Shown here piece by piece: positions 9,532 through 23,888 of a stretch of DNA of 64,000 nucleotides. Made by a program: the position numbers and the translations under genes. The notes under the pieces are model-generated. The model ran no database searches, had not been told where the DNA came from, and worked only from the letters and a program-made list of their open reading frames with translations. Every line of letters begins with the position of its first letter. Positions within the stretch are counted from its first letter, which is position 1. Location of the stretch: contig NZ_CP034767.1 of NCBI RefSeq assembly GCF_004005995.1, positions 3,884,501 through 3,948,500 on the forward strand, read 5' to 3'. This DNA comes from Devosia sp. 1566. Its GTDB lineage: Bacteria > Pseudomonadota > Alphaproteobacteria > Rhizobiales > Devosiaceae.

Positions 9532-10890
9532 ATGAACGAGATCAACACCAATGAGTTGATCCAAGCCAATGTGCGCACCAGCTCAAGCCCGAGCGATCTG
9601 CGCATCACCGATATCCGCGTCGCCGAAATCGTGGGGGCGCCGTTCATCAGCGCGCTCCTCAAGATCTACACCAATCAGGGCATAGTCGGCTTTGGCGAAG
9701 TGCGCGACGGCGCCAGCGCCACCTATGCGCTGATGCTCAAGAGCCGGCTGCTCGGCGAAAACCCGCTCGATGTGGATCGCCTGTTCCGCCGCATCAAGCA
9801 GTTCGGCGGCCACGGCCGGCAGGGCGGCGGCGTTTCGGCTATTGAGATTGCTCTATGGGACATTGCCGGCAAGGCCTATGGCGTGCCGATCTACCAGATG
9901 CTGGGCGGCAAGTTCCGCGACAAGGTGCGCATGTATTGCGACACCGATGCCAGCGTCGCCAGCGGCACCGAAACCGGCAAGCGGTTGAAGGAACGGATGG
10001 CGCTGGGCTTCACCTTCCTCAAGATGGACCTCGGGCTGATGCAGGTCGTCGATACCCCCGGCTCCGTTGTGGCGCCCGCGGGCTCGCTTGAGGGCTATCG
10101 CATCCATCCGCCCCGCGGCCACGGCAAGACGCTCGAAGACCGCCGCGCCCGCAACGCCGTCTACGACACCCACAATGTGCGCCACCCCTTTACCGGGCTC
10201 AACTTCACCGAGCGCGGGCTCGACCAGCTCGAGCAATATATCCACGAAGTGCGCGAGGTGATCGGCTACGAGATCCCGCTCGCCATCGACCATGTCGGCC
10301 ATATCTCGCTGCAAAGCGGCATCCGGCTCGCTCGCCGCATCGAGAAATACGCCCCGGCCTGGCTCGAGGACGTGATCCCCTGGCAATATACCGAGCAGTA
10401 TCGCGAGCTGCAGCAGGCCACGACCGTGCCGATCTGCACCGGCGAGGACATCTATCTGCGCGAGGGTTTCGAGCCGCTGCTGGGTTCGGGCATTTCGGTG
10501 ATCCACCCCGATCTGCTCACTTCGGGCGGGATTCTCGAAACCAAGAAGATCGGCGACGCCGCCCAGGAACAGGGTATCGCCATGGCCATCCACATGGCCG
10601 AAAGCCCCATTGCCTGCATGGCCGCCGCCCATGTCGCCATCGCCACGGACAACTTCATGGCGCTCGAATACCATTCGGTCGAGGTCGACTGGTGGGACGA
10701 CATCGTCACCGGCCTGCCCAAGCCCCTGGTGCAGAACGGCTTCATCACCGTGCCCGACAAGCCGGGCCTGGGGATCGACGACATCGTCGACGAGGTCATC
10801 GCCGAGCACCTGCAGGACGGCGTCAAGGGCATCTGGCTGCCCACCGACCACTGGAACGACGACTATTCCTGGGACCGGACGTGGAGCTAG
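9532..10890 (+). CDS. Enolase-superfamily protein, paralogue 3 (452 aa, long form)
   Basis: 452-residue member, about 60 longer than its neighbours. The N-terminus adds about 22 residues before the first strand. A barrel insertion around residues 185-235 includes [14 protein letters not shown] and a [10 protein letters not shown] segment. Metal ligands are Asp (LAIDHVGH), Glu/Asp (WLEDVIP) and Glu ([12 protein letters not shown]), and the C-terminal His is in IHMAESP. The first-ligand motif is D-H-V-G-H instead of D-x-H, so substrate contacts differ from the galactonate-dehydratase type. The second strand is FLKMDLG. The ATG at 9532 follows GGGAGGAATTGACCC. It is in series with paralogues 2, 4 and 5; the specific reaction is not assignable. 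Confidence 0.87.
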
Positions 10891-10923
10891 GCTTTTTCCC
10901 CGACGGGGAAAATAGCCCCGCCT

Positions 10924-11119
10924 CTTCGCGCAGCGAAGATGGCTCAGGCTTCCCGGCCTTTTCGCGCAGCGAAAATGGCGAGCGTCTATTCTGGGCAAAA
11001 CCATCGCCCACCCACTGAACGGCACCTCCCCCTTGATGGGGAGGCTGGGAGGGGGTGCGGGAGCCACGATGTCGGGGCGAACGCCCCTTACCCTTGATCC
11101 CTCCCCGCCCGGGGGAGGG
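10924..11119. repeat. Cluster of intergenic palindromic repeats
   Basis: The 277-bp gap between two dehydratase genes holds four stem-loops. Two tandem copies share TTCGC-GCA-GCGAA followed by AATGGC or GATGGC (10924-10938 and 10959-10975). CCTCCCC/GGGGAGG is at 11025-11044 inside a larger CACC(T)CCCCC...GGGGGTG frame, and CCCTCCCC/GGGGAGGG is at 11099-11119. The CCCTCCCC-type unit recurs at 25720-25891, so this is a dispersed genomic repeat and not a gene-specific signal. It may terminate or stabilise the upstream message; no T-tract is present. Confidence 0.7.
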
Positions 11120-11167
11120 TGTCGACTGAAAGGTCAGCGACACCGCCAACAAGGTTCAGGAGGAACC

Positions 11168-12367
11168 ATGAAAATCACCGATCTGCGCTGCGCCGTTATT
11201 GGCCGGCACCCCATTGTGCGCGTCGTCACCGATGAAGGCCTCTATGGCCTGGGGGAAGTGGAATACACCAAGGCTTATCTCAAACCCTGGGTGCTCCATT
11301 TCCGCGATGCGCTGATCGGGGAAGACCCCACCGATGTCGAGCGCTGCATGCTGAAAATCCGCCAGCGCGGCTCGTTCAAGCCCTATGGCGCCGCCGTTTC
11401 GGCCATCGAGCATGCCCTCTGGGACATCGCGGGCAAGGCTGCCAATGTGCCCGTTTACAAGCTCCTCGGCGGCAAGGTGCGCGACCAGGTCCGCGTCTAT
11501 AACGGCTCCATCCGCCAGAAACGCACCGGCGATCGCCCCGAGGATTATGCGGCCGACGTCAAATGGATGATGGAGCAGCCGCAGAACTTCTTCATGGTCA
11601 AGCAGGGCATCAGTTTTCATTCCAACATGAAAACCGCTGTTCCCGATTTCCATTATGGGGTTACCCAGCCGCGCCTGTTCCACGGCGCCATGGACCAGGG
11701 CCAGATCAGCGAGCACGCTTTCAACCACATGCTCGATTGCGTCATCGCCATGAAGGAAGTGCTGGGTGACAAGGTTTCCCTCGCGCTCGATTGCGGCCCC
11801 GGCTGGTTCCTGCCCGATGCCATCCGCTTTGCCCAGGCGGTCGAGAAATACAATCTGATGTGGCTCGAGGACATGCTGACCGGCGATTACGTGCCCTGGG
11901 TCAATCCCCAGGCCTATCGCGAGCTGACCACCTCGACCTCCACCCCCATCCATACCGGCGAGCAGATTTATCTCCGGCACAATTTCAAGGAACTGATCGA
12001 AACCCAGGCCGTGCGCATCATCGGCCCCGATCCTGCCGATATCGGCGGCATTGCCGAGCTCAAATGGGTGGCCGAGCACGCCTATATGCATTCCATCATG
12101 ATGGCACCGCATGGCACCGCCAATGGCCTTTTGGGCCTCGGCGCCCTCATCAATGTTTGCGCCACGCTGCCGGCCAACTACATCGCCTTTGAATATCCCA
12201 GCGCGTCCGATCCCTGGTGGGAGGACATCGTCATCGGCCTGCCCGACCAGATCGTCACCAATTCCATGGTCGATCTGCTCGAAGCGCCGGGCCTGGGGCT
12301 CGATATCGATCCCGAGGGGGCCCGGCCTTATCTGCTGGAAGATGATTTGGACTTTTTCGCCCCCTGA
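11168..12367 (+). CDS. Enolase-superfamily protein, paralogue 4 (His missing at first metal-ligand motif)
   Basis: 399-residue enolase-superfamily protein. The N-terminal capping domain (about 1-120) includes EVEYTKAYLKPWV. The barrel strand near the usual Lys reads MVKQGISFH. Metal ligands are Asp (ALDCGPGW), Glu/Asp (WLEDML) and Glu (HTGEQIYLRHNF), and His is in MAPHGTANG. The first ligand motif is D-C-G-P where close relatives have D-x-H, so a single His is left as the obvious acid/base. The ATG at 11168 is preceded by AGGAGGAACC; the open frame extends upstream to 11033 only by chance. It is separated from paralogue 3 by a repeat cluster and may be transcribed from its own promoter. Confidence 0.87.
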   Translation: MKITDLRCAVIGRHPIVRVVTDEGLYGLGEVEYTKAYLKPWVLHFRDALIGEDPTDVERCMLKIRQRGSFKPYGAAVSAIEHALWDIAGKAANVPVYKLLGGKVRDQVRVYNGSIRQKRTGDRPEDYAADVKWMMEQPQNFFMVKQGISFHSNMKTAVPDFHYGVTQPRLFHGAMDQGQISEHAFNHMLDCVIAMKEVLGDKVSLALDCGPGWFLPDAIRFAQAVEKYNLMWLEDMLTGDYVPWVNPQAYRELTTSTSTPIHTGEQIYLRHNFKELIETQAVRIIGPDPADIGGIAELKWVAEHAYMHSIMMAPHGTANGLLGLGALINVCATLPANYIAFEYPSASDPWWEDIVIGLPDQIVTNSMVDLLEAPGLGLDIDPEGARPYLLEDDLDFFAP

Positions 12368-12447
12368 GGAGAGGGGCGAGAGAGCAGCTTGCACACAACA
12401 ATCGGGCTGCACCGCAAGGGGCAGCCACGCGCGGGGAGGAGAACCAC

Positions 12448-13614
12448 GTGAAAATCACTTCGGTCACCACAGCGGCCACATCGGGCCATTGCATGCATCT
12501 ATGGGTGCGCATCGAAACCGATGCCGGCATCACCGGCCTCGGCGAATGCGTCCATGGCGGCCACCAGGCCATTGCCATCATCCAGCGCGAACTGGCGGGC
12601 AAGCTCGTCGGTCGCGACCCCTTCGCCATCGACGCCATCTTTGAGGAAATCCGCCGCAGCCTCGTTTTCGAAGGCGGCTTTGCCGGCGCCTTGATCACCG
12701 CGCTCACCGGCGTCGAGATCGCCCTTTGGGACCTCAAGGGCAAAGCCCTGGGCGTGCCGATCTATGAGCTCATGGGCGGCAAGTTCCGCGACCACATTCG
12801 CGTTTACTGCGATTGCGAAGTCTCGCCCGGCATGAACATGGACCAGGTGCAGGCCGAGGTCGATCAGGTGCTCGCAGCCGGTTTCACCGCCCTCAAGGTC
12901 GATCTCGATATCCGCGCCTATGGCCATACCGGCACCGAAACCGACTGGTATGAAAAGGACGGCTTCAACATGACTCCCAACAAATGGGAACATGACCGCA
13001 TGGTGCAGCTGGCCGAAATGGTGGTCAAGGCCGCCGGCAAGGAGGTGGAAGTCGCCTGCGACCTGCATACCCGCCTCGACAAGCACAGCGCCATCCGCCT
13101 CGCCCGCGATCTCGAGCACCTGCAGTTGATGTGGCTCGAAGAGCCCATTCCGCCCGAGAACATCGATGTCATGGCCGAGATCACCCGCAGCACCACGACC
13201 CCGATCTGCGCCGGCGAAAACCTTTATCTGCGCCACGGGTTCAGGAAGCTGCTCGAGCAGCAGGCGGTGGATATCATCATGCCCGATATCCCCAAATGCG
13301 GGGGCCTGTCGGAATGCCGCAAGATCGCCGAGCTGGCCGATCTCTACTCAATCCCGTTTGCGCCCCACAACGTGTCCTCGCCCATCGGCACCATGGCCTC
13401 GGCTCAGGTCTGCGCCACGGTGCCCAATTTCCTCGTTCTCGAGTTCCATTGGTTCCACCGCGATTACTGGTCCACCATCACCGATGGCGGCGAGATCATC
13501 AAGAACGGCAGGATTGCGCTCAGCGATCGGCCGGGCATCGGGCTCGAGCTCAACGAGGAAGTCGCCCGCGCCCACCAATATCCCGGCACGACCTGGTTTG
13601 AGCCGATGCAGTAA
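12448..13614 (+). CDS. Enolase-superfamily sugar-acid dehydratase, paralogue 5
   Basis: 388-residue member closest in motif pattern to galactonate/gluconate-type dehydratases. The capping domain is about 1-120. Metal ligands are Asp (ACDLHTRLD), Glu (WLEEPI) and Glu (CAGENLYLRHGF); His is in APHNVSSPIG. The Lys strand is ALKVDLD. D-x-H is present. It starts at GTG 12448 with GGGGAGGAGAACCAC upstream. Last gene of the plus-strand run; GC-rich hairpins follow (GCCGGCGC/GCGCCGGC at 13686-13706) between it and the convergent small gene at 13731. The reaction is inferred from the active-site pattern; the substrate is unknown. Confidence 0.88.
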   Translation: MKITSVTTAATSGHCMHLWVRIETDAGITGLGECVHGGHQAIAIIQRELAGKLVGRDPFAIDAIFEEIRRSLVFEGGFAGALITALTGVEIALWDLKGKALGVPIYELMGGKFRDHIRVYCDCEVSPGMNMDQVQAEVDQVLAAGFTALKVDLDIRAYGHTGTETDWYEKDGFNMTPNKWEHDRMVQLAEMVVKAAGKEVEVACDLHTRLDKHSAIRLARDLEHLQLMWLEEPIPPENIDVMAEITRSTTTPICAGENLYLRHGFRKLLEQQAVDIIMPDIPKCGGLSECRKIAELADLYSIPFAPHNVSSPIGTMASAQVCATVPNFLVLEFHWFHRDYWSTITDGGEIIKNGRIALSDRPGIGLELNEEVARAHQYPGTTWFEPMQ

Positions 13615-13730: not shown

Positions 13731-14051
13731 TTACGCCGCCTGGGCTTCCAGCAGGTCGAAGGTCGCGACCTTGTTGGCAAAGGCGAATTTTTCAGCGGTG
13801 GAGCTGTCCATCGCCGTCATCGCCTGGTTCAGCAGCGCCTTGAATTCGACCAGCGCCGCGCTCGCATCATCCACCGAAAAGGGCTCGCCTTCGAACCGGG
13901 CGACAAAGCGTGCAGCCACCCGGCCAAGCAGGGCGAGAATGGCGGCATTGTCGCTATCCTGACGGGCCAGTTCGCGCACTTTCTGGTGGAACTCGGTATA
14001 GGTCCGGATCCCCCCGCTTTGTTCTTCAAGCCAGGTATAAAGGTCGTGCAC
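13731..14051 (-). CDS. Small hypothetical protein, 106 aa
   Basis: I do not recognise the family. The product is predicted helical, acidic at the N-terminus (MHDLYTWLEEQSGG), without membrane segments or Cys clusters. The start is GTG at 14051 with AGGAGA eight bases upstream, which supports real translation. It is divergent from the XRE regulator at 14138, so its 5' end lies about 50 bp from the regulator's candidate operator (14103-14120) and the two may share control. It converges with the dehydratase ending at 13614. Confidence 0.6.
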   Translation of the reverse strand: MHDLYTWLEEQSGGIRTYTEFHQKVRELARQDSDNAAILALLGRVAARFVARFEGEPFSVDDASAALVEFKALLNQAMTAMDSSTAEKFAFANKVATFDLLEAQAA

Positions 14052-14102
14052 TCTAGGTCTCCTGTCATAACAGACGCTTGCTGGACGGCGGAAACGGGCG
14101 TG

Positions 14103-14120
14103 TATATCAAAAGTGAGACT
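14103..14120. promoter_or_regulatory. Candidate autoregulatory operator of the XRE regulator
   Basis: The sequence TATATC-AAAAGT-GAGACT matches the TGTCTC-N6-GAGACA operator seen at 15088. The right half and A-rich centre are conserved and the left half is degenerate. It lies 17 bp before the regulator ATG and overlaps a plausible -10 (TGTATA at 14101, with TTGCTG at 14078 as -35, 17-bp spacing). That placement fits negative autoregulation. Confidence 0.55.
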
Positions 14121-14137
14121 TAGCGCAAAGGGAAAGC

Positions 14138-15031
14138 ATGTCCGCCCAATTCGAGGAAATCGGCAAACGACTGCGCGCTCATCGGATCGGCAAGAACCTG
14201 AACGCCGATGATATTGCCGCCCATCTTGGCATCTCTCGCGCTGCCGTTTACCGGCTCGAGAAGGGCGAAATCGTCAAGGTCCAGATCCTGGAATCCATCG
14301 CCCGCTTCCTTGATGTATCCCTGCCTTCGCTCTTGGGCGTTGGCGTCGAATACTACAGTAATGCCCTCTCGTTTTTCGAGCGCATGCGCCAGCTCGAAGA
14401 AAAGTCGCACTATCTCCTCGGCAATTTCTCGCCGGTCTCGTCTCTCTTGCTGTCGCCCGACTACATGGATTATCTTCGCCTGATGCTGGTGGAGGCCATT
14501 TCTGAAACCGAGCGCGACCGCCCCGCCGCTCTACACGCCATCGACAATATTCTCGATCTCCTCAATGAGCGCCGCCGCAGCGCCACAAGGCGCAATGTGC
14601 CCATCGTCTCCATCGTCGGCAGCCAGGATATCGAGCGGTTTTTGCTGTTGGGTCTCGTCGGGAGGCTGGATCTACCGCGTGAAGTCCAGGCCGAGCGCCG
14701 TGCCGCCGCCCGCCTCGAAATCGAGCGGCTATGCACCACGCTCGAGCGCCAGCCGATCGGCACCCAGATCGGCATCATCGATGGCCAGCCGCCCAGCCAG
14801 ACCTTCCAGATCTATGAGCGCGACGCCGATTCCGCGGTCACTCTCTCGCCCTACCGCCTTGGCGATCAACCCAATATTTCCTCGGGCATCGCCATTGTCA
14901 CCACCGCGCCCGAAGCGGTGCACCACTTCCGTGACACGCTCGAAGCGCAATGGGCCGTGGCGAAGAAAGGCCCCGATGGTGCCGCCATCCTGCGCCGCAT
15001 CATCGAGCGCACGGCCGCGACCTTCCCCTGA
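14138..15031 (+). CDS. XRE-family helix-turn-helix regulator of the pyrimidine-acid cluster
   Basis: 297-residue regulator. The N-terminal Cro/C1-type HTH covers about residues 6-62 (EIGKRLRAHRIGKNL...GISRAAVYRLEKGEI). A long C-terminal region follows, without a cupin or S24 peptidase motif I can recognise, probably for effector binding and oligomerisation. It is immediately upstream of the pyrK-pyrD operon. An imperfect 18-bp inverted repeat precedes this gene and recurs before pyrK, the TRAP operon and the 23180 gene, so it is the probable repressor of all of them. An orotate- or dihydroorotate-like inducer is inference. Confidence 0.88.
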   Translation: MSAQFEEIGKRLRAHRIGKNLNADDIAAHLGISRAAVYRLEKGEIVKVQILESIARFLDVSLPSLLGVGVEYYSNALSFFERMRQLEEKSHYLLGNFSPVSSLLLSPDYMDYLRLMLVEAISETERDRPAALHAIDNILDLLNERRRSATRRNVPIVSIVGSQDIERFLLLGLVGRLDLPREVQAERRAAARLEIERLCTTLERQPIGTQIGIIDGQPPSQTFQIYERDADSAVTLSPYRLGDQPNISSGIAIVTTAPEAVHHFRDTLEAQWAVAKKGPDGAAILRRIIERTAATFP

Positions 15032-15061
15032 GCGCGCGGGCGTACCGACCACGCAGGCCCA

Positions 15062-15105
15062 TTGACAACCTGCCCGGGGCTGCGCATTGTCTCAAAAATG
15101 AGACA
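15062..15105 (+). promoter_or_regulatory. pyrK promoter with overlapping operator; possible leaderless start
   Basis: TTGACA (15062-15067), a 17-bp spacer and CATTGT (15085-15090) form a -35/-10 pair. A perfect inverted repeat, TGTCTC-N6-GAGACA (15088-15105), covers the end of the -10 and the expected transcription start. The expected start point falls at or within a base or two of the in-frame ATG at 15098, so the mRNA may be leaderless. Binding of a repressor here would block RNA polymerase. Confidence 0.6.
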
Positions 15106-15943
15106 GGATGAAATCTCCGCCCTCGCCCCCGCCGCTCCTTTTATGCCGCGCATTGCGGATACCTCGGCGCGTGTCCTCAGCAATGACTGGGTTAATGCCG
15201 AATATAAGCTCGTCGTGCTCGATGCCCCTGGTGTCGCCGCCACGGCCGAAGCGGGCCAGTTCTTCAACATCGACTGCCCGGCAATCGGCGAAGACAAGCC
15301 GTTCTTTCGCCGCCCCATGAGCACCTATGCCGCCGACCCCGCGACGGGCCGGGTGGAGTTCCTCTACAAGGTCGCCGGCGCCGGCACCCGTGGCCTCGCC
15401 AGCCTCGCGCCCGACAGCACGCTGCGCATTCTTGGTCCCCTGGGGGTCGGCTTCAGCTTGCCCGAGGGTATCCGCTCCATTGTCGTGGTTGGGCGTGGCG
15501 TCGGGCTTGCAACCCTCGCGCCCCTGGCCGAACTCGCCCGCAGCTGCGGCATCGCCGTTACTGCCCTTGTCAGCGCCCGCGATCCCGCAGCTGTGCTCTC
15601 GGTGGAGCGCTTCCGCTCCGCCGGCGCTGCCGTCGAGATCGTGCTCGACAGCGATGGCACCAGCGAGCTGCCCCATGTCGAGGCCCTGCTGCGGCGCCTC
15701 CATGCCGATGGCCGCGCCGACGCTCTTTACACCTGCGGCTCCAACCGTCTGATGCTGCTGCTCCAGCGCCTCGCCGCTGAACTCGACCTTTACGGCGAAG
15801 TCGCCATGGAACAGCAGATGGCCTGCGGCCTGGGCATGTGCTTTTGCTGCGTGCGCAATTTCACTGTCGATGGGCAAACCGTTTCCAAGCGCGTCTGCTG
15901 GGATGGCCCCGTCTTTCCCCTTGCCGAGGCCACCTCATGGTAG
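15098..15943 (+). CDS. pyrK: Dihydroorotate dehydrogenase electron-transfer subunit, PyrK-like
   Basis: About 281 residues. It has a ferredoxin-reductase-type FAD domain (FFRRPMSTY, then YKVAGAGTRGLASL), an NAD-binding domain (VVVGRGVGLATLAPL) and a C-terminal [2Fe-2S] loop with Cys 243, 248, 251 and 267 (CX4CX2CX15C), close to the CX4CX2CX14C of Gram-positive PyrK. PyrK links class 1B dihydroorotate dehydrogenase to NAD, so the reaction can run toward orotate or, with NADH, toward dihydroorotate. I chose ATG 15098 from the promoter geometry; the frame is open from 15062. It overlaps the pyrD start (ATGGTAG). Class 1B enzymes are less usual in alphaproteobacteria, most of which use quinone-linked PyrD. 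Confidence 0.87.
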   Translation: MRQDEISALAPAAPFMPRIADTSARVLSNDWVNAEYKLVVLDAPGVAATAEAGQFFNIDCPAIGEDKPFFRRPMSTYAADPATGRVEFLYKVAGAGTRGLASLAPDSTLRILGPLGVGFSLPEGIRSIVVVGRGVGLATLAPLAELARSCGIAVTALVSARDPAAVLSVERFRSAGAAVEIVLDSDGTSELPHVEALLRRLHADGRADALYTCGSNRLMLLLQRLAAELDLYGEVAMEQQMACGLGMCFCCVRNFTVDGQTVSKRVCWDGPVFPLAEATSW

Positions 15944-16878
15944 ACCTGCGCACCGATCTCGGGCGAGGCCTGGTCCTCGCCAATCCCGTCATGCCCGCCT
16001 CGGGCACCTTTGCCGAAGGCCTCGCCGACGTCATCGACCTCAACACGCTAGGCGCGCTGGTCACCAAGACCATCACCGCCGAATTGCGCGGCGGCAATGC
16101 TACGCCCCGGGTGGCGGAAGTGGGCAATGGCATGCTCAATTCCATCGGCATCCCGTCCAAGGGGATTGCACATTTCCTCGCCGAAACCCTGCCCTTTTAC
16201 CGCAGCTTTGCGAGCCCGCTGATCGTCTCGGTCTCGGCGCCCACCATTGCCGAATTTGCCCAAGCGGCCGCGCAGCTCAACCAGCCCGGCATTGCCGGCA
16301 TCGAAGCCAATATTTCCTGTCCCAATATCGAGGAAGACGGCAAGGCCTTCGCCATGCGCCCCGCCACCACCGAACAGGCGATTGCCGCCATGCGCGCCGT
16401 CACCGACCTGCCGCTCTGGGCCAAGCTCACCCCCAACACCGGCGACATTGCCGGCGTCGCCCGCGCCGCTGAAGCCGCGGGCGCCGATGCCGTGGTCGTC
16501 GCCAACACCATCCTCGCCATGTCGATCGACATCGATACGATGCGCCCGACCCTCGGCAACATCATGGGCGGCCTGTCCGGCCCCGCCTTCAAGCCCATTG
16601 CCCTGCGCATGACCTATCAATGCGCCCGCGCCGTCCGCATCCCCGTGATCGGCTGCGGCGGCATCAGCAGCGCCCGCGACGCGGTCGAGTTCCTGCTCGC
16701 CGGCGCGCGCGCCGTGCAAATCGGCACCGCCACCTTCACCCGCCCCGGCACCATGCCCGAAGTGATCGCCGGCCTCGCGCAATACTGCGAACGCCATGGC
16801 TTCACGAGCCTCGACCAGCTCATCGGCGCCCTCGACACCGACATGCAGCTCCCCCACCTGATGGAGGCCGCCCAATGA
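15937..16878 (+). CDS. pyrD: Dihydroorotate dehydrogenase catalytic subunit, class 1
   Basis: 313-residue FMN TIM-barrel enzyme that interconverts dihydroorotate and orotate. The FMN-contact Lys 44 is in LVTKTI, the substrate loop NSIG is at 68-71, and the catalytic Cys 128 is in ISCPN, which marks class 1 (class 2 has Ser). The phosphate loop is GCGGISS. Size and pairing with PyrK fit class 1B. The ATG at 15937 overlaps the pyrK stop, and the gene's TGA overlaps the next ATG at 16875, so the three genes are translationally coupled. In this setting with an amidohydrolase and a transporter, the reductive, catabolic direction is possible. Confidence 0.9.
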   Translation: MVDLRTDLGRGLVLANPVMPASGTFAEGLADVIDLNTLGALVTKTITAELRGGNATPRVAEVGNGMLNSIGIPSKGIAHFLAETLPFYRSFASPLIVSVSAPTIAEFAQAAAQLNQPGIAGIEANISCPNIEEDGKAFAMRPATTEQAIAAMRAVTDLPLWAKLTPNTGDIAGVARAAEAAGADAVVVANTILAMSIDIDTMRPTLGNIMGGLSGPAFKPIALRMTYQCARAVRIPVIGCGGISSARDAVEFLLAGARAVQIGTATFTRPGTMPEVIAGLAQYCERHGFTSLDQLIGALDTDMQLPHLMEAAQ

Positions 16879-18167
16879 ACGCCCTTGCGCCTGCGGCCGA
16901 TATCGATTGGACCGCCTTCCCCACCGAGCATGAGCTCGCCACCGCCATCTTTGCCGAACTGGCCCGCTGCACCGGCGACGGCGTCGGCATCACCCGCGAA
17001 TGCTATGCACCCGGCGAAGACGCGGCGCTGGCCATCTTCTCGGCCGTCGCCCACGCCCATGGCTTTGCCATCAGCATCGATCCCGTCGGCAATCTCCTCG
17101 TTTGCCTGCCCGGCGATGATGGCACCCGCCCCGCCCATCTCATTGGCTCGCACGCCGATTCCGTGCCCCAGGGCGGCAACTACGATGGCGCCGCCGGCAT
17201 CGTCGCGGGTCTCGCCTGCCTTATCCGCATTGCCCGCTCGGGGCGCGAGCTCACCACCCCCGTGCGCCTGCTGATGCTGCGCGGCGAGGAAAGCGCCTTT
17301 TATGGCCGCGCCAATATCGGCTCGCGCGCCCTTTTTGGCATCCTCTCCCCCGCCGATCTTGCTGCCCGCTCGCGCGGCACCGGCCGGACCCTGGCCGAAG
17401 CCATGACCTCGGTCGGCATCGACCTCGCCCCCATCCGCGCCGGCCAGACCCTTTTTGACCCCAGCACCGCCGCGAGCTACCTTGAACTCCATATCGAGCA
17501 GGGCCCGGTGCTGATCGACCGCCGCCTGCCCGCCGCAGTCGTCTCGGGCATTCGCGGCAATCTGCGCCACCGCCGCGTCGTTTGCCGCGGGGAAGCTGGC
17601 CATTCCGGCACCATCCCTCGCTGGCTGCGAAAGGATGCCGTTTTCGCCTTTGCCGATCTTGTCGGGCGCCTCGACGAGCATTGGCGCGTCCTCCTCGAGC
17701 GCGGCCTCGACCTCGTGGTGACCACCGGCATTGTCGGCACCGATCCAGACCAGCATGCCCTCAGCCGCATCCCGGGCGAAGTCATGTTCTCCTTTGAAGT
17801 GCGCAGCCAGAGCCACGACACGCTCGAAAGCTTCTACGAGCTGTTCCGCGCCGAATGCCGCGCCGTCGGCCAGCAGCGCGGCGTCGTCTTCGAGCTCGAC
17901 GAGCGCGTTTATACCGAGCCCGCTCGCATGGACCCCGCCGTGATCGAGCGCCTCTGCGCCGCCGCCGCCGCTTGCGACCTCGATCCCCAAACGCTGCCTT
18001 CGGGCGCCGGCCATGATGCGGCGGTGTTCGCCAATGCCGGCATTCCCTCGGGCATGGTGTTCGTGCGCAACGCCAATGGCTCGCACAATCCCGCCGAAGC
18101 CATGGATATCGGGGATCTCATCAAAGGCACCGATGTGCTTTATAAGGCCGTGACCGCCACCAACTGA
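16875..18167 (+). CDS. M20-family N-carbamoyl-amino-acid hydrolase; candidate ureidosuccinase
   Basis: 430-residue di-metal amidohydrolase of the hydantoinase/carbamoylase (allantoate amidohydrolase, beta-ureidopropionase) family. Metal-site residues include His 93 (GSHADSVPQGGNYDG) and Asp 104, the Glu pair (LRGEESAF), His in ELHIEQGP, and a C-terminal His (ANGSHNP). The dimerisation-domain motif SGAGHDAAVFA is present. Family members hydrolyse N-carbamoyl amino acids to the amino acid, CO2 and ammonia. The gene is coupled to pyrD by ATGA and followed 17 bp later by pyrC, whose product is N-carbamoyl-L-aspartate. I therefore infer N-carbamoyl-aspartate (ureidosuccinate) as substrate. Other ureido acids remain possible. 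Confidence 0.85.
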   Translation: MNALAPAADIDWTAFPTEHELATAIFAELARCTGDGVGITRECYAPGEDAALAIFSAVAHAHGFAISIDPVGNLLVCLPGDDGTRPAHLIGSHADSVPQGGNYDGAAGIVAGLACLIRIARSGRELTTPVRLLMLRGEESAFYGRANIGSRALFGILSPADLAARSRGTGRTLAEAMTSVGIDLAPIRAGQTLFDPSTAASYLELHIEQGPVLIDRRLPAAVVSGIRGNLRHRRVVCRGEAGHSGTIPRWLRKDAVFAFADLVGRLDEHWRVLLERGLDLVVTTGIVGTDPDQHALSRIPGEVMFSFEVRSQSHDTLESFYELFRAECRAVGQQRGVVFELDERVYTEPARMDPAVIERLCAAAAACDLDPQTLPSGAGHDAAVFANAGIPSGMVFVRNANGSHNPAEAMDIGDLIKGTDVLYKAVTATN

Positions 18168-18184
18168 GCCAGGCCCCCGACCCC

Positions 18185-19225
18185 ATGCGATCCCTGACCA
18201 TCCGCAAGCCCGTCGACCTTCACGTGCATTTCCGCGACGGCGCGGTGCTCGATGCCGTCGTGCCCCACACCGCCCGCCAGTTTGCGCGCGCCATCGTCAT
18301 GCCCAATCTGGTGCCCCCCGTCACCACCGCCGCGATGGCCGCCGCGTATCGCGCGCGCATCGAGGCGGCGATCCCCGAGGGGGTCGACTTCACCCCCATC
18401 ATGACCTGCTACCTCACCGACGCCACCGACCCCGCCGACCTCATTGCCGGCCATCGCGACGGCATCTTTGCCGCCGCCAAGCTCTACCCCGCCCACGCCA
18501 CCACCAATTCGGCCCATGGCGTTACTTCCATAGCCGGGCTCGATCCTGTGTTCGCAGCGATGGCCGAAGCCGGCATGCCGCTCCTCACCCATGGCGAGCT
18601 CGTCCACCACGATGTCGATATCTTTGATCGCGAAGCGCGCTTCATCGATGCCGTCCTCGCCCCGCTGCTCGAGCGCCACCCGACGCTCAAAGTGGTGATG
18701 GAGCATATTACGACGAGCGAAGGCGCCCAGTTCGCGAGGAGCCACGGCAGCCGCGTCGCCGCTACCATCACCCCCCAGCACCTGCTTTATGATCGCAATG
18801 TGCTGTTCGAAGGCGGCATCCGCCCCCATTATTATTGCCTGCCCATCCTCAAGCGCCGCTCCCACCAGCTGGCGCTGCGGGAGGCGGCCACCAGCGGCGC
18901 GCCCAACTATTTCCTGGGCACCGACACGGCCCCCCATCTGCGCCATCTCAAGGAAAATGCCTGCGGCTGCGCCGGCGTCTTTTCCGCTCCCGTCGCGGTC
19001 GAGGCCTATCTCAAGGTCTTTGCCGAGGAAAACGCGCTCGACAAGTTCGAGGCCTTTGCTTCCCTCAATGGCCCCGCCTTTTACGGCTTTGCGCCGTCAC
19101 AAACCCGCGTCACCTATGAGGAACGCGCCTGGACCGCGCCCGCCAGCGTTTCGGTGGAAGAGCACCAGATTGTCCCGCTCTTTGCGGGCGAACGAGTTGA
19201 CTGGGCTTTGAGCCGCGGTTTATAG
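18185..19225 (+). CDS. pyrC: Dihydroorotase, class II
   Basis: 346-residue amidohydrolase, the normal length for E. coli-type PyrC. The zinc ligands His 13 and His 15 (DLHVHFRDG), the carboxylated Lys 99 (AAKLYPA), downstream His residues (LTHGEL, VMEHITT) and the late Asp (GTDTAPH) are all in place. It reversibly converts N-carbamoyl-L-aspartate and dihydroorotate. It lies in the pyrK-pyrD-M20-pyrC-pyrE series. With the M20 hydrolase it would complete a route from dihydroorotate to aspartate; in de novo synthesis it would run the other way. Confidence 0.93.
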   Translation: MRSLTIRKPVDLHVHFRDGAVLDAVVPHTARQFARAIVMPNLVPPVTTAAMAAAYRARIEAAIPEGVDFTPIMTCYLTDATDPADLIAGHRDGIFAAAKLYPAHATTNSAHGVTSIAGLDPVFAAMAEAGMPLLTHGELVHHDVDIFDREARFIDAVLAPLLERHPTLKVVMEHITTSEGAQFARSHGSRVAATITPQHLLYDRNVLFEGGIRPHYYCLPILKRRSHQLALREAATSGAPNYFLGTDTAPHLRHLKENACGCAGVFSAPVAVEAYLKVFAEENALDKFEAFASLNGPAFYGFAPSQTRVTYEERAWTAPASVSVEEHQIVPLFAGERVDWALSRGL

Positions 19226-19330
19226 CGAACCGGTTGCAATCGAGATTTAAGCACCCTGCGGCGCTGGACTTCCATCCGGCGGCCGCGATTTCGCGCGACC
19301 GCATGACGCAATGATGAAGGACTGTTTCCC

Positions 19331-20041
19331 ATGAGTGCACTGCACCGCAGCGAAGACAAAAAAGCCATCGCCCGGCAAACCGCCCGGATGATGCTCGAGA
19401 TCAACGCTGTTCACTTCAATGCCGAACATCCATTCGTCTTCACCTCCGGCTGGGCCAGCCCGGTTTACGTGGATTGCCGCAAGCTCATCTCCTATCCGCG
19501 CCTGCGTTCGGCGCTGATGGACATGGCCGCCCAGACCATCGTCACCGAAATCGGCTATGAGTCGATCGACGTGGTCACCGGTGGCGAAACCGCGGGCATC
19601 CCCTTTGCCGCCTGGATCGCCGACAAGCTGATGCTGCCCATGCAGTATGTGCGCAAGAAGGCCAAGGGCTTTGGCCGCAACGCCCAGATCGAGGGGGAAG
19701 TGATCGCCGGCGCCCGCACCCTCCTCGTGGAAGATCTCGCCACCGACGGGCGCTCCAAGGTCATGTTCGCCGATGCGCTGCGCAAGGCGGGCGCCAAGGT
19801 CGACCACTGCTTCATCGTCTTTTTCTACGACATCTTCCCCAACAGCCACGACCTGATGAAGGAGCTCGGCATCGAGCTGCATTATCTCGCGACCTGGTGG
19901 GATATCCTCGAGGCAGCCAAGGAATCCGGGCACTTCGATGCCAAGACCCTGACCGAGGTCGAAAGCTTCCTCAACGACCCCTCGAGCTGGTCGGCTGCCC
20001 ATGGCGGCATTTCCGAATTCTCCCCTACCCCTAAGGAATAA
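19331..20041 (+). CDS. pyrE: Orotate phosphoribosyltransferase
   Basis: 236-residue type I phosphoribosyltransferase that makes OMP from orotate and PRPP. Visible signatures are [16 protein letters not shown], the flexible-loop [10 protein letters not shown] and the PRPP-binding stretch [11 protein letters not shown] 105-bp gap separates it from pyrC, so it may have its own promoter; no copy of the XRE operator is visible in that gap. A strong bidirectional terminator follows at 20068-20096. In a degradation cluster it would let imported orotate enter UMP synthesis directly. Confidence 0.93.
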
Positions 20042-20067
20042 GCCCGTTTTCAACCGGCAAAACAAAA

Positions 20068-20096
20068 GGGCCGCCCAGTGGGCGGCCCTTTTTTTT
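20068..20096 (+). terminator. Rho-independent terminator after pyrE, bidirectional
   Basis: GGGCCGCCC (20068-20076) pairs with GGGCGGCCC (20080-20088) across a three-base loop and is followed by eight T (20089-20096). An A-tract precedes the stem, so it should also stop the convergent TRAP operon on the other strand. Confidence 0.93.
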
Positions 20097-20114
20097 GTCC
20101 CTCTGTGACCCCGG

Positions 20115-21398
20115 TCAGGGCGCCAGCATGCGGGGCAGGAACATCGAGATCTCGGGCAGATAGGTGATCACCAGCAAGGCCAGCAGGTTCACCACCACAA
20201 AGGGAAAAATGCCCGAAATGATCTTGCCCACCGACTCCCCGAGCGTCGAGGACGCCACGAAAATGTCGAGCCCGAATGGGGGCGTGATCATGCCGATACA
20301 GGTGTTGAGGCACACGATGATGCCGAAATGGATGGGATCGATGCCAAAGCTGACCGCCACCGGATAGAGCGCCGGTACGAGGATCAGCATGGTCGAATTG
20401 GGATCGATGAACATGCCGGCGACAAGGAACAGCAGGTTGACGATCAGGAGGAACATCACCCAGTTCGCATCGATCGCCCCGAGAAAGTCGATCACCAGCG
20501 TTGGCAGCTGCGCCAGCGTGATGAAATAGGCCACGATCGAGCCCATCGCCAGCAGCACGAAGATCGTGCCCGTGGTCACCGCCGCGCCGGTCGCGACCTT
20601 GAACACATCGCCCAGTTTCATGTGGCGATAGATCAGCACCTCGACAATCAACGCATAGGCCACGCTGACGGCGGCAGCTTCGGTGGGGGTGAAGAGGCCC
20701 GAATAGATACCGCCGAGCAGCACGACCGGCAGGCCCAGCGCCCAGATCCCGCGCCCCACCACTTTGAGCCGCTCGCCCCAGCTCAGAGGCGCATCGCCCT
20801 TGATGCCGTGGCGATAGGCGTAAAACAGCACATAGCAGCAAAACACGCCGGCCAGGAACAAGCCCACGACGAGGCCGGCGGCAAACAGCGCCGCCACCGA
20901 CGTGCCGGTGAGCCAAGCATAGATGATGAGCGTGATCGAGGGCGGGATCAGCAGCGATACTTCCGCCGAGGACACGATGAGCCCGAGCGAGAACTTGTCG
21001 GAATAACCTTGCCGCTGCATTTCGGGATAAACAATGCCGGCCAGCGCCGCCACGGTGGCCGGCGCCGAACCCGATACCGAACCGAAGGCCGCCGCGGCCG
21101 CCACTGTAGTCAGCCCCATGCCGCCCCGGCGATGGCCGAGAAAGGCCCCCACCAGCTGGATCAGGTGCCGCGCGATCACCCCCTTGGACATGATCTCGGC
21201 GGCAAAGATAAAAAACGGAATGGCCAGCAGCGTCGAATGGTTGATGCCCCCGACGATGCGCTGCCCATAGATCAAATCGGGCATGCCGGAAAAGAAGAAT
21301 TCCTTGGTCAGGATGCCCGGAATGCCGAGCACGATGAGCATTTCAAAGCCAAGGAAGAGGAGGGCCAGCGCCCCCGCAACAAGAACGGCAATCAACAT
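20115..21398 (-). CDS. TRAP transporter large permease, DctM type
   Basis: 427-residue membrane protein with about 12 predicted spans, the catalytic H+/Na+-coupled subunit of a TRAP importer. Typical segments are MSKGVIARHLIQLVGAFLGH, SGSAPATVAAL and GMITPPFGLDIFV. It starts one base after the DctQ stop. The operon order on this strand is two-barrel protein, DctP, DctQ, DctM. TRAP systems usually carry carboxylates; linkage and shared operators with pyrKD suggest orotate or dihydroorotate, which is inference. Confidence 0.94.
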   Translation of the reverse strand: MLIAVLVAGALALLFLGFEMLIVLGIPGILTKEFFFSGMPDLIYGQRIVGGINHSTLLAIPFFIFAAEIMSKGVIARHLIQLVGAFLGHRRGGMGLTTVAAAAAFGSVSGSAPATVAALAGIVYPEMQRQGYSDKFSLGLIVSSAEVSLLIPPSITLIIYAWLTGTSVAALFAAGLVVGLFLAGVFCCYVLFYAYRHGIKGDAPLSWGERLKVVGRGIWALGLPVVLLGGIYSGLFTPTEAAAVSVAYALIVEVLIYRHMKLGDVFKVATGAAVTTGTIFVLLAMGSIVAYFITLAQLPTLVIDFLGAIDANWVMFLLIVNLLFLVAGMFIDPNSTMLILVPALYPVAVSFGIDPIHFGIIVCLNTCIGMITPPFGLDIFVASSTLGESVGKIISGIFPFVVVNLLALLVITYLPEISMFLPRMLAP

Positions 21399-21399
21399 C

Positions 21400-21918
21400 T
21401 CAGTGGGCCTCAGCCTTGTTGGACCAGCGATCGATCAGCCCGAACAGGCTCATGGCATAGCGCAGCGCCAGCAGCAGAAAGCCGACAGGCAGCGCGTAAT
21501 ACAAAAGGGCGGCCGGGACGCCCAGGGTCGGGCTCATCTGCCCGGTGCGCCCCACGGTCTGCGCCATCTGCAGGCCGAACCAGGCGATATAAAGCGAGAG
21601 CACGAGCCCAGACAGATCAATGGCCCGGCGGATCCAGAGCTGGGCGCCCGAGGACATGCGCTCAAGGAAACTGGTCATGGCGATCTGGCGCCCTTCGGCC
21701 AGCGCCAGCCCCAGCGACAGAAACACCAGCCATACCATCAGATAGCGGGCGGCTTCGTCGATCCAGGCGAAATTGCGCGCATAGACGGGAACCAGTTCGC
21801 GCACGACCACACCGGTGACGTAAAGCGCGACCATGATCAGCATCAGGGCTGCTAGCGCGATCCGCTCCAGGGACGACCAGGCGGCGAGCGCCTTGGAAAA
21901 CTTGCTGTTTGGGCTCAT
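21400..21918 (-). CDS. TRAP transporter small permease, DctQ type
   Basis: 172-residue four-span membrane protein that bridges the TRAP complex. The spans are near residues 18-38, 47-66, 88-108 and 130-150. The DctQ hallmark WIDEAARYLMVWLVFLSLG is present. It is separated from dctP by an intercistronic terminator-like hairpin (21940-21975), so its level is probably below that of the binding protein. Confidence 0.92.
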   Translation of the reverse strand: MSPNSKFSKALAAWSSLERIALAALMLIMVALYVTGVVVRELVPVYARNFAWIDEAARYLMVWLVFLSLGLALAEGRQIAMTSFLERMSSGAQLWIRRAIDLSGLVLSLYIAWFGLQMAQTVGRTGQMSPTLGVPAALLYYALPVGFLLLALRYAMSLFGLIDRWSNKAEAH

Positions 21919-21939
21919 GTCACTGCGGGTTCCCTCTGC

Positions 21940-21975
21940 AAAAAAGAGGCGCCAGGGGAAAAGCTCCTGGCGCCT
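21940..21975 (-). terminator. Partial terminator between dctP and dctQ
   Basis: Read on the minus strand, AGGCGCCAGG and CCTGGCGCCT form a 10-bp stem, followed after one base by a run of six T (plus-strand A at 21940-21945). Position directly after the dctP stop suggests attenuation, giving more binding protein than permease. Confidence 0.75.
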
Positions 21976-22017
21976 GCTGGCTGCTGGCGCCTTGCGGCGC
22001 CGGTTCGCTCAATTGGC

Positions 22018-23034
22018 TTACTGCCCCGAGACCGCGCTGTATTGCGCCTCATAGGCATCCACGATTCCCTGCCCAGCGGCACCCGCATTGGCGAGATAGG
22101 CATCGCGCGCGGGGCCATACATGGCTTCCCGGAAAGCGGCGCGCTGCGCGTCGTCGAGCTCCTGGATGGTGATGTCGCTGGCGCGGATGGTTTCGAGCGC
22201 GGTGGCCTGGGCGGCTTCCTTGAGCTCTTCCACCTGCGGGCGCACTTCCTCGAAGGCCTCGATGATCACGGTCTGGTATTCGGCCGGCAGGCCATCCCAC
22301 CAGGCCTGGTTGAACATCACCACGTCCTCATTGGCGCCGTGCTCGGACACCAGCAGGTAGTCCTGCACTTCGTGGTACTTCATGGTCGCGATCGTATCGA
22401 GGGCATTTTCCTGCCCGTCGACCACGCCGGTCTGCAGAGCGGTGTAAAGCTCGCCAAAGGGCAGCGCCACGGCCGAAGCACCGACGGCATTGAACTGCTC
22501 GATCAGCACCTTGCTGTCCATGACGCGGAAGCTCTGGCCGGCGAAGTCCTCGAGCGCGGCAATCTCTTCATTGGAAGTCATCGACTTGCGCCCATTGGGC
22601 CAGATGGCAATGGCCTTGAGCCCGAGCGGGGCAAAGCTGTCGAGCACGGCTTGGCCGAAAGCGCCGGTGCGCAGCTCATTGGCCTGGGCGCGATCGGCGG
22701 GATACAGGAACGGCACGTCAAGGATCGATACGGCAGGGTTGAAGCCGGCAAGGAACGCGGCGGGCGACACGGTGCCTTCCATCAGCCCCAGCTGGGTGCC
22801 TTCATTCATCTCACGGGCCTGGCCGAGCTGGCCGGCGGGGAACAGCTGGAACGCCACGTTGCCGTCGGTGCGCTCCTTGACGAGGTCGGCCACCATCACC
22901 AGGCCCTTGTGACGCGGCTGCTGGTCCGATTCCAGGTGGCCGATCCGGGCGGTGAATTGCTGGGCGGCGGCGGGCAGCGCCCCGATCAGTGCGGACAGGA
23001 CCGCGACGCTGGCAAGCAAAACACGACGGTTCAT
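22018..23034 (-). CDS. TRAP transporter substrate-binding protein, DctP type
   Basis: 338-residue periplasmic binding protein with a signal peptide (about residues 1-27, ending LPAAAQ). The family's carboxylate-binding Arg is in the segment QSFRVMDSK. I chose the ATG at 23034 because GAAGGGGA precedes it; an in-frame ATG five codons upstream would place that ribosome site inside the gene. An operator-like inverted repeat lies at 23100-23117. It belongs with the DctQ and DctM permeases downstream and is probably regulated by the XRE protein at 14138. Confidence 0.93.
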   Translation of the reverse strand: MNRRVLLASVAVLSALIGALPAAAQQFTARIGHLESDQQPRHKGLVMVADLVKERTDGNVAFQLFPAGQLGQAREMNEGTQLGLMEGTVSPAAFLAGFNPAVSILDVPFLYPADRAQANELRTGAFGQAVLDSFAPLGLKAIAIWPNGRKSMTSNEEIAALEDFAGQSFRVMDSKVLIEQFNAVGASAVALPFGELYTALQTGVVDGQENALDTIATMKYHEVQDYLLVSEHGANEDVVMFNQAWWDGLPAEYQTVIIEAFEEVRPQVEELKEAAQATALETIRASDITIQELDDAQRAAFREAMYGPARDAYLANAGAAGQGIVDAYEAQYSAVSGQ

Positions 23035-23099
23035 TTGGTTCCCCTTCATTCAAAATTATTTTCGACAAAAGCCCTGCGCCCCAACGGAGTCAAGCGAAC

Positions 23100-23117
23100 T
23101 TTCTCAAAAACTAGACA
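23100..23117. promoter_or_regulatory. Candidate XRE operator before the TRAP operon
   Basis: TTTCTC-AAAAAC-TAGACA differs from the pyrK operator (TGTCTC-AAAAAT-GAGACA) at three of 18 positions. It sits 66 bp before the dctP ATG, in the gap after the 23180 gene, where a promoter is expected. On the minus strand TCTAGT could serve as a -10. Confidence 0.6.
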
Positions 23118-23179
23118 GTTCTGTTATCCTGCCCCAATGTTGGGCGGCCTGCCCAAACTCTGGCCCGGTTAGTACCCAT

Positions 23180-23819
23180 TCACGGCAGCGCCAGTTCCTC
23201 GGTAAATCCGGCCAGTTCCGTCCCCACCGGCAGCAGCGCCCGCACCGCTTCGCGCACCGCTATCACATCGACATCGCGCGCCAGCACCACCAGCACCACC
23301 CCTTGCGGCTCACCCACATCGCGCCCCTGTCGCTCTGCCGTGGGCAGCGCCGAGATGGCCTGGTCGGCCAGGCCCAGATGGCACCCCGCCACCCCAGGCA
23401 GCGCCGCAATCCCCGCCGCCACCGCCGCCCAGTCCTCCTCAGCCTCGGCCACAAGGCACCCCACCAGCACCCGCTCGCCCGGAGCCTCGCCAGCGCTGGG
23501 GCCAAAAAAGCCGACGCAGCGCCGATTGTTCTGAAACTGGCGCATCACCCGCTGCGTCCAGGGGCTGGGATCATTGAGCCGCGCCAGATACGCCGCCGAC
23601 CGGCTCACCTCGGGTTCCGCAAGGGTATACAGCGTGAAAAACTCGAGCGGCGCCTCGTCGGCCCGCCACCGCGTGCCACCCAAAAAGCCGGGGATGGCGA
23701 GGCGCTCGGGCATATGCTCCTCGCGGTGCCAATCGACGAAATCCTGCCGCCCTACGGCCGGGATCCCGTTCCAGATTGCGACAAAGCCGCGCCCCGCCAG
23801 TGAATGCATCCGTATCTCC
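23180..23819 (-). CDS. EthD-like/dimeric alpha-beta barrel protein of unknown function
   Basis: 213 residues, read as two ferredoxin-like (dimeric alpha-beta barrel) halves. The first half has FVAIWNGIP...DFVDWHREEHMPERL, the arrangement of EthD/DUF-type barrel proteins. The second half (from about residue 115) repeats a shorter strand-helix pattern (VLVGCLVAEAEED...VVLVVLARDVD). No signal peptide or membrane segment. I chose the ATG at 23819 because GGAG precedes it and the operator at 23871-23888 lies upstream; the open frame to 23956 would read through that operator. It is upstream of the TRAP genes, so a role in handling the imported compound is inferred. Confidence 0.75.
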
Positions 23820-23870
23820 GCAAAATCGGCCGGGCCATAACTGTAGCGCAGCCGCGCAACATCGCCGCTT

Positions 23871-23888
23871 CGTCTCACGATTGAGACG
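23871..23888. promoter_or_regulatory. Candidate XRE operator before the barrel-protein gene
   Basis: CGTCTC-ACGATT-GAGACG is a perfect inverted repeat with the same spacing as the pyrK operator. The symmetry extends outward (GCTT...AAGC with one extra A on the right). It lies 51 bp before the ATG at 23819. Confidence 0.65.

Follow-up and report, generated by a model that had tools for sequence, protein, structure and literature searches.

The question raised by one locus of Devosia sp. 1566 is whether a set of pyrimidine genes standing beside an importer serves biosynthesis or the breakdown of a compound taken up from outside. The locus (positions 13731-23887) lies in the window, that is, the 64,000-nucleotide stretch of DNA that was analysed as a whole, inside one contig of 4,168,745 bp. 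It carries genes of the pyrK, pyrD, pyrC and pyrE types, an M20-family hydrolase gene, a regulator gene and the genes of a tripartite ATP-independent periplasmic (TRAP) importer. Our analysis indicates that this gene set, called the cassette below, is very probably a dedicated regulon for the uptake and reductive degradation of orotate, with a candidate gene for ureidosuccinase. Every gene named in an earlier sequence-only reading was found where that reading had placed it, and the importer and barrel-like genes do lie on the opposite strand past a terminator-like hairpin. The extent given there was incomplete, in that the gene for a 106-amino-acid (106-aa) protein and the operator sites at 14104, 15089, 23101 and 23872 had gone unmentioned. 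The features are as follows.

13731..14051, minus strand: gene for the 106-aa protein, family unassigned, divergent from the regulator gene; overlooked in the sequence-only reading
14104..14119, between the 106-aa gene and the regulator gene: operator-like site with 2 mismatches, ATATCAAAAGTGAGAC
14138..15031, plus strand: XRE-type regulator with an N-terminal helix-turn-helix (HTH) and a C-terminal domain (Pfam HTH_3)
15089..15104, upstream of pyrK: perfect operator palindrome GTCTCAAAAATGAGAC, one of the genome's two perfect sites
15143..15943, plus strand: PyrK-like FAD/[2Fe-2S] electron-transfer subunit (PF10418); the ATG at 15143 was taken as the start, earlier starts being possible
15937..16878, plus strand: PyrD, catalytic subunit of a class 1B-type dihydroorotate dehydrogenase (PRK07259, TIGR01037)
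16875..18167, plus strand: M20 carbamoylase, candidate N-carbamoyl-L-aspartate hydrolase (ureidosuccinase) (TIGR01879)
18185..19225, plus strand: PyrC, dimeric-type dihydroorotase, the second in the genome (TIGR00856)
19331..20041, plus strand: PyrE, orotate phosphoribosyltransferase, apparently without a second copy in the genome (PRK00455.1-3)
20064..20092, plus strand: terminator-like hairpin of 13 pairs followed by a T run, between the convergent pyrE and dctM
20115..21398, minus strand: DctM, TRAP large permease (PF06808, TIGR00786)
21400..21918, minus strand: DctQ, TRAP small permease (PF04290)
22018..23049, minus strand: DctP, TRAP solute-binding protein, predicted to bind orotate (similarity to PDB 4NN3)
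23101..23116, upstream of dctP: degenerate operator-like site with 3 mismatches, weak alone
23180..23809, minus strand: barrel-like protein, its gene opening the TRAP strand; the ATG at 23809 was taken as the start
23872..23887, upstream of the barrel/TRAP strand: perfect operator palindrome GTCTCACGATTGAGAC, the second perfect copy in the genome

The genome was searched for a second pyrD, pyrC and pyrE, as the sequence-only reading had proposed. Three DHO_dh matches were present: besides the window PyrD, the genome encodes a quinone-type enzyme of class 2 (538450) and a dihydropyrimidine dehydrogenase of the PreA type (17296). The pyrB gene was found at about 1810308 and is followed by a long-type dihydroorotase gene pyrC at 1811387 (the pair spans 1810308-1812493). 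A second pyrD and a second pyrC therefore exist, and the absence of pyrB from the locus, which had been held to argue against a simple de novo operon, was confirmed. On the other hand, a genome protein search for PyrE returned the window copy alone. Nine matches to phosphoribosyltransferase domains consisted of the window PyrE, seven proteins typed otherwise (hypoxanthine phosphoribosyltransferase, ribose-phosphate diphosphokinase, xanthine phosphoribosyltransferase, PRK06031, adenine phosphoribosyltransferase, purF and uracil phosphoribosyltransferase) and one untyped match at 3530620 with internal stops. Since no second pyrE was detected, the window pyrE apparently doubles as the housekeeping copy. 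PyrKD and PyrC are surplus to the de novo route, and PyrE is apparently shared with it. The family assignments of the last two enzymes were clear for PyrC (420.7 bits against the TIGR00856 cut-off of 293) and for PyrE by PRK00455.1-3 (389 against 245), with TIGR00336 slightly under its cut-off (103.9 against 106.8).

An ordinary housekeeping pyr operon, with the importer and the hydrolase as unrelated neighbours, would account for the order pyrD, pyrC, pyrE and for the apparently single pyrE. However, a de novo pyrimidine operon would contain pyrB and the sole copies of pyrC and pyrD, and none of this is the case here. In a sample of the genus, this type of PyrE was found in 7 of 61 genomes, the own genome included (E ≤ 1e-30), and all six others had the arrangement M20-PyrC-PyrE-DctM. 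This PyrD occurred in 27 of 297 genomes of a sample of the order, the own genome included, and in none of the 6 other genomes of the same genus in that sample (both at E ≤ 1e-60). In a sample of the phylum it was found in 1 of 398 genomes, the own one, at the stricter cut-off of E ≤ 1e-90 and with no more than 5 candidates scored in each; as a negative this result is weak. The patchy presence of PyrD and PyrE in the genus marks the gene set as accessory. In addition, the locus shares operators that are unique in the genome, and the linkage of its genes recurs in distant taxa and on plasmids. A housekeeping operon was therefore rejected on the basis of the second pyrD, the pyrB-pyrC pair elsewhere and the patchy presence, and we give it hardly any probability.

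Related loci were selected through PyrD. Of the 128 that encoded a relative, the 80 best were retained, and the other genes were sought by tblastn in the fetched flanks. The nearest named relatives belong to Pelagibacterium and Devosia (81-82% PyrD identity). PyrK was present in all 80 loci, M20 in 79, PyrE in 66 and XRE in 65, followed by DctM and DctP (45 each), DctQ (44), PyrC (41) and the barrel gene (4). Because PyrK and M20 accompany PyrD almost without exception, the gene set cannot be attributed to chance. Pairwise identities across the loci were correlated among M20, PyrD, PyrK and XRE with r = 0.84-0.90, and with DctP at 0.52-0.62 (values uncorrected for species relatedness). These frequencies also bear on a second explanation, pyrimidine salvage or biosynthesis, in which the importer would bring in dihydroorotate or orotate, PyrKD would work oxidatively and feed PyrE and UMP, and the M20 enzyme would have a side role. 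Such a role agrees with the presence of pyrE at the locus and in most relatives, apparently as the sole copy here, and with a pyrF relative in the flanks of 4 of the 80 loci and in an Agrobacterium plasmid. However, an M20 hydrolase beside PyrKD in 79 loci would drain the pathway, the genome already has a de novo route through pyrB, the long pyrC and the class 2 pyrD, and the operators and the importer indicate regulated uptake. We consider salvage or biosynthesis improbable. Eight genomes from one family of the order (L065-L072) encode a PyrD of 47-50% identity, with PyrE in seven and PyrC in five; no M20 match was found in the short loci fetched, and this group is possibly a biosynthetic cousin.

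The PyrD of the window exceeded both class 1 thresholds, with 348 bits against 269 for PRK07259 and 299 against 270 for TIGR01037, and its best PDB matches were 5UE9, 5KSW and the PyrDB structure 1EP1. The catalytic Cys128, in the motif NISCPN, was conserved in all 81 PyrD sequences, as were Lys44, Asn68, Asn125, Asn130, Lys163, Asn190 and Thr191, positions with active-site roles in dihydroorotate dehydrogenase structures. A uracil-reducing enzyme of the dihydropyrimidine dehydrogenase (DPD) type was rejected as a candidate, with a score of 146 for PRK08318 (PreA) against a cut-off of 335 and a true PreA elsewhere in the genome. PyrK contains the DHODB Fe-S domain PF10418 (44 bits against 23.9) and aligns with the PyrK of PDB 5KSW across the cysteine region.

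The M20 enzyme belongs with the hydantoinase/carbamoylase amidases by its TIGR01879 score (257 bits against 204), its metal ligands and its fold. It misses the equivalog cut-off of the ErtE N-carbamyl-L-glutamate amidohydrolase (280 bits against 520). The cassette enzymes share a signature of R136, R227, R249, R298 and N399, and the arginines are absent from nearly all other carbamoylases compared. These shared arginines would be fitting for a substrate with a second carboxylate, and together with the gene context they make the M20 enzyme a candidate N-carbamoyl-L-aspartate hydrolase, EC 3.5.1.7. This enzyme entry is not known to have an assigned gene. No entry for EC 3.5.1.7 was seen in the accessible part of PMC1940265. 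Two gammaproteobacterial loci, L105 and L106, from records labelled Candidatus Symbiopectobacterium and Serratia marcescens, contain XRE, PyrK, PyrD and the small protein with a divergent M20 of 30% identity.

The 106-aa protein showed no Pfam family above cut-off, and a search for it gave 10 matches, of which the two with a source name were both called 'hypothetical protein'. An iterated hidden Markov model search detected it as a separate open reading frame of less than 260 aa in 59 of the 80 relatives, and a six-frame search added two loci (L107 and L148). In two further loci (L126 and L150) the homologue is fused to the C-terminus of M20, which brings the total to 63 of 80, and it is likewise joined to the M20 C-terminus in the Agrobacterium plasmid. 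The fusion suggests that the 106-aa protein works together with the hydrolase.

The substrate was approached through DctP. Its best PDB match was 4NN3, a TRAP protein of Maridesulfovibrio salexigens, at 425 bits, the runner-up having 181, and 194 of 332 residues (58.4%) were identical. The accessible part of PMC11668362 describes 4NN3 as bound to orotic acid and as differing from its relatives at two positions (4P47 numbering): residue 152 is Lys where Arg is usual, and residue 76 is Asn. The window DctP shares Lys152, Arg173, Phe196 and Asn213 with 4NN3. Among 46 cassette DctPs, the window protein counted, Lys152 was found in 45 and Arg173 and Asn213 in all. Orotic acid is also among the TRAP ligands in the accessible part of the review PMC5812351. 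The proposal of orotate as the substrate is thus upheld by the close kinship of DctP to an orotate-bound protein, and orotate is better supported than dihydroorotate as the ligand.

The importer differs among the 80 loci. By distance rules, TRAP alone was assigned to 39, a major facilitator superfamily (MFS) protein to 21, an NMT1-type ATP-binding cassette (ABC) importer to 6, TRAP with ABC to 4 and MFS with ABC to 2, and none was detected in 8, one of which (L082) has TRAP genes slightly past the distance limit. The top model for three MFS proteins examined was the aromatic acid/H+ symport family, under its cut-off. Five rhizobial loci (L126, L128, L134, L144 and L150) all combine an ABC importer of the NMT1 type with a phosphopentomutase-type protein, and four of them (not L126) have a uridine-phosphorylase-like protein under the equivalog cut-off. 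This neighbourhood perhaps serves the uptake and cleavage of orotidine.

The palindrome GTCTCAN4TGAGAC occurs without mismatch at 2 sites in the 4,168,745-bp genome, both at this locus, 39 bp ahead of the pyrK start and 63 bp ahead of the barrel gene. In the 80 loci (1,572,359 bp), the core TCTCAN4TGAGA was present in 50 copies and the reversed pattern in none. At positions −250 to +30 the core was found for 25 of 65 XRE, 18 of 46 DctP, 10 of 80 PyrK and 0 of 46 DctM genes, compared with 33 of 4000 random windows. In four of the rhizobial loci (L126, L128, L144 and L150) it lies ahead of both the ABC operon and pyrK. The idea of a regulon is upheld by this shared rare palindrome and by the co-occurrence across species. 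As for the weaker sites, the 16 bases of the 14104 site also adjoin the small gene in L073-L076, and the window contains 12 three-mismatch sites where 17 would be expected, so that a lone site of this kind means little. Single-mismatch copies at genome positions 2722415 and 3476669 were treated as chance, unannotated open frames crossing both centres. Terminator-like matches across the region numbered 9, against a shuffle mean of 9.9; since they are no commoner than in shuffles, the hairpin between pyrE and dctM counts by its quality and placement only.

The AlphaFold model of XRE, with a predicted local distance difference test (pLDDT) score of 91.8, consists of an HTH (residues 1-69) and a second domain (68-294). 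Among the fold-search matches listed for the latter, the best non-HTH ones, moderate in strength, were PLD-type domains and TrmBL2. The HxK(x4)D motif was found in none of 66 sequences, which makes it likely that this domain acts as a sensor and not as an enzyme.

Similar cassettes also occur on plasmids. In PLSDB, 81 plasmid records contained a PyrD relative (E ≤ 1e-60), 13 at 60-80% identity and 68 below, and 53 of them are from Klebsiella. Cassettes were seen on plasmids of Klebsiella, Pseudomonas putida, Variovorax, Agrobacterium and Nitratireductor, and PyrK, PyrD, M20 and XRE were verified by tblastn in all five plasmid loci inspected. The M20 signature was complete in three of the five, the other two deviating at position 249 alone. 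The exact operator core was found in the Agrobacterium and Nitratireductor loci and was not seen in the Klebsiella, P. putida and Variovorax loci. The Klebsiella cassette comprises MFS, PyrK, PyrD, Zn-hydrolase, pyrC, HTH and small protein genes; 53 plasmid records carry most of its length at 99% identity or more, two further records contain only its last 215 bases, and a near-match search of an E. coli set gave no match. In the three Klebsiella records inspected (L212, L217 and L218, all IncFIB-bearing) the cassette stands beside lacYZ, 1.4 kb from lacY. Nine of the 53 plasmids were listed as coming from milk or mastitis milk, a count that has no baseline, many of the plasmids being from human isolates. 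Orotic acid is present in cow's milk and absent from human milk, according to the accessible part of PMC12399412, and the accessible part of PMC12724306, on acquired lac plasmids in mastitis, contained no occurrence of orotat-, dihydroorot- or pyrC. The link of the Klebsiella cassette to milk is a lead only.

Several observations weigh against an orotate-degrading regulon. No dihydroorotase was detected in the flanks of 39 of the 80 loci, where ring opening must rely on another copy; three queries for a dihydropyrimidinase-like protein or a long dihydroorotase found none in these loci (E ≤ 1e-10). PyrE had no match in the flanks of 14 loci and XRE none in those of 15. PyrK fell under every NCBIfam PyrK equivalog cut-off (best 113.5 bits against 314) and is PyrK-like, outside the curated PyrK equivalogs. 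R227, R249, R298 and N399 are missing from the M20 proteins of L105 and L106. At 75/76 the window DctP has Gln-Ala and not the Asn of 4NN3, the structural position being approximate, and 33 of the 46 cassette DctPs have Asn-Gln. The exact operator core was found in only 41 of the 80 loci. With up to two mismatches allowed, the genome has 41 sites of the palindrome and 30 of its reversed control, a small difference, and the exact copies alone stand out. Finally, the substrate loop of PyrD reads PSK in 80 of 81 sequences, whereas it reads QNP in the PyrDB structures 1EP1 and 5UE9 from Lactococcus lactis. This near-invariant motif sets the cassette PyrD apart as a distinct subfamily, the substrate of which could differ.

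The PSK motif thus speaks for a third explanation, that the cassette degrades a related compound, such as another carboxylated pyrimidine, a hydantoin or orotidine, and not orotate. The ABC importer, uridine-phosphorylase-like protein and phosphopentomutase of the rhizobial loci suggest a nucleoside and point the same way. Nevertheless, DctP is akin to an orotate-bound structure, the dimeric PyrC is far over the dihydroorotase cut-off, and the active-site residues of PyrD are identical in all 81 sequences. We give the related compound only a slim chance, and the degradation of orotate is retained as the preferred reading.

In the proposed pathway, the TRAP importer would take up orotate, PyrK-PyrD would run in reverse with NADH and reduce it to dihydroorotate, and PyrC would open the ring to give N-carbamoyl-L-aspartate. 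The M20 enzyme would then produce L-aspartate, CO2 and ammonia, which would feed carbon and nitrogen metabolism, and PyrE would divert part of the imported orotate straight to UMP. XRE would bind the GTCTCAN4TGAGAC operators ahead of pyrK and the importer strand, and a weaker site ahead of its own gene, and would presumably repress until its C-terminal domain senses orotate or dihydroorotate. The reductive and hydrolytic direction is suggested mainly by the M20 gene. What the sequences show directly is the genes with their families and key residues, the rarity and conservation of the palindrome, the co-occurrence across loci and the kinship of DctP to an orotate-bound protein. We infer the ligand of this DctP, the direction of PyrKD and the substrate of M20. 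We likewise infer the binding of XRE to the palindrome, its effector and the sign of control, as well as the roles of the 106-aa and barrel-like proteins.

Orotate fermentation by Clostridium (Zymobacterium) oroticum proceeds through an NAD-linked class 1B dihydroorotate dehydrogenase, dihydroorotase and ureidosuccinase. The class 1B assignment of the C. oroticum enzyme is given by a table entry and a reference title in the accessible part of PMC10395836. Each of these three reactions has a candidate enzyme in the cassette, namely a class 1B-type PyrKD, a dihydroorotase and a carbamoylase; in contrast, the candidates are found in an alphaproteobacterium with a de novo route and are accompanied by a TRAP importer, an operator, a regulator, the 106-aa protein and pyrE. 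The reductive uracil (Pyd/PreTA) pathway follows a similar logic of reduction, cyclic amidohydrolase and carbamoylase. However, the cassette PyrD retains the dihydroorotate dehydrogenase loop NxIG, and the cassette PyrC is a dihydroorotase and not a dihydropyrimidinase; PreA, another M20 and a dihydropyrimidinase are encoded at a separate locus of the genome (17296-26521). With respect to known M20 carbamoylases (N-carbamoyl-beta-alanine amidohydrolase 8C46, L-carbamoylase 3N5F, allantoate amidohydrolase 1Z2L and ErtE), the cassette M20 forms a separate subfamily and scores under the M20-amidase equivalog cut-offs compared.

A wider scheme may tentatively be drawn: a mobile aerobic orotate catabolism, in which the M20 clade would be the ureidosuccinase gene, the 106-aa protein its subunit or domain, and XRE an HTH protein with a non-catalytic PLD/TrmB-like domain sensing orotate or dihydroorotate; the rhizobial version would import and split orotidine, and the version next to lacYZ on Klebsiella plasmids would use the orotate of cow's milk. 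That all these parts hold jointly is rather unlikely.

As regards the surroundings, the barrel-like open reading frame had no Pfam or NCBIfam match and 838 database homologues, and among the 120 listed none has a named function; its gene has a perfect operator in front, yet it is present in just four of the 80 relatives. The TRAP proteins exceed their Pfam cut-offs. Three consecutive enolase-superfamily genes (mandelate racemase type, by eye) lie just upstream at window positions 9532-13614, and from 24166 on there is an ABC system that by eye is of the oligopeptide type. Neither has an exact operator, and both were kept out of the regulon.

Among the matches listed, no bacterial orotate-catabolic operon was found in the open-access literature, subscription literature being mostly outside this search, and the open-access papers on the degradation or use of orotate concerned genetic tools, plasmids or drugs, judging by their listings. 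The genetic form described here (importer, regulator, M20 subfamily, small protein and mobility) was absent from these open-access matches, and the chemistry is that of the orotate-fermenting clostridia. PyrD is labelled as pyrimidine biosynthesis (GO:0006221) in all five plasmid records inspected, and PyrK and the small protein are labelled 'hypothetical' in the Klebsiella plasmids; this annotation would be corrected, the set looking catabolic although its genes are tagged as biosynthetic or hypothetical. The recurrence of the cassette with differing importers makes the question of the substrate directly testable. If our reading is true, it would provide testable genes for the breakdown of orotate outside clostridia, above all a specific gene that may encode the carbamoylaspartate hydrolase, together with a defined regulator and operator.

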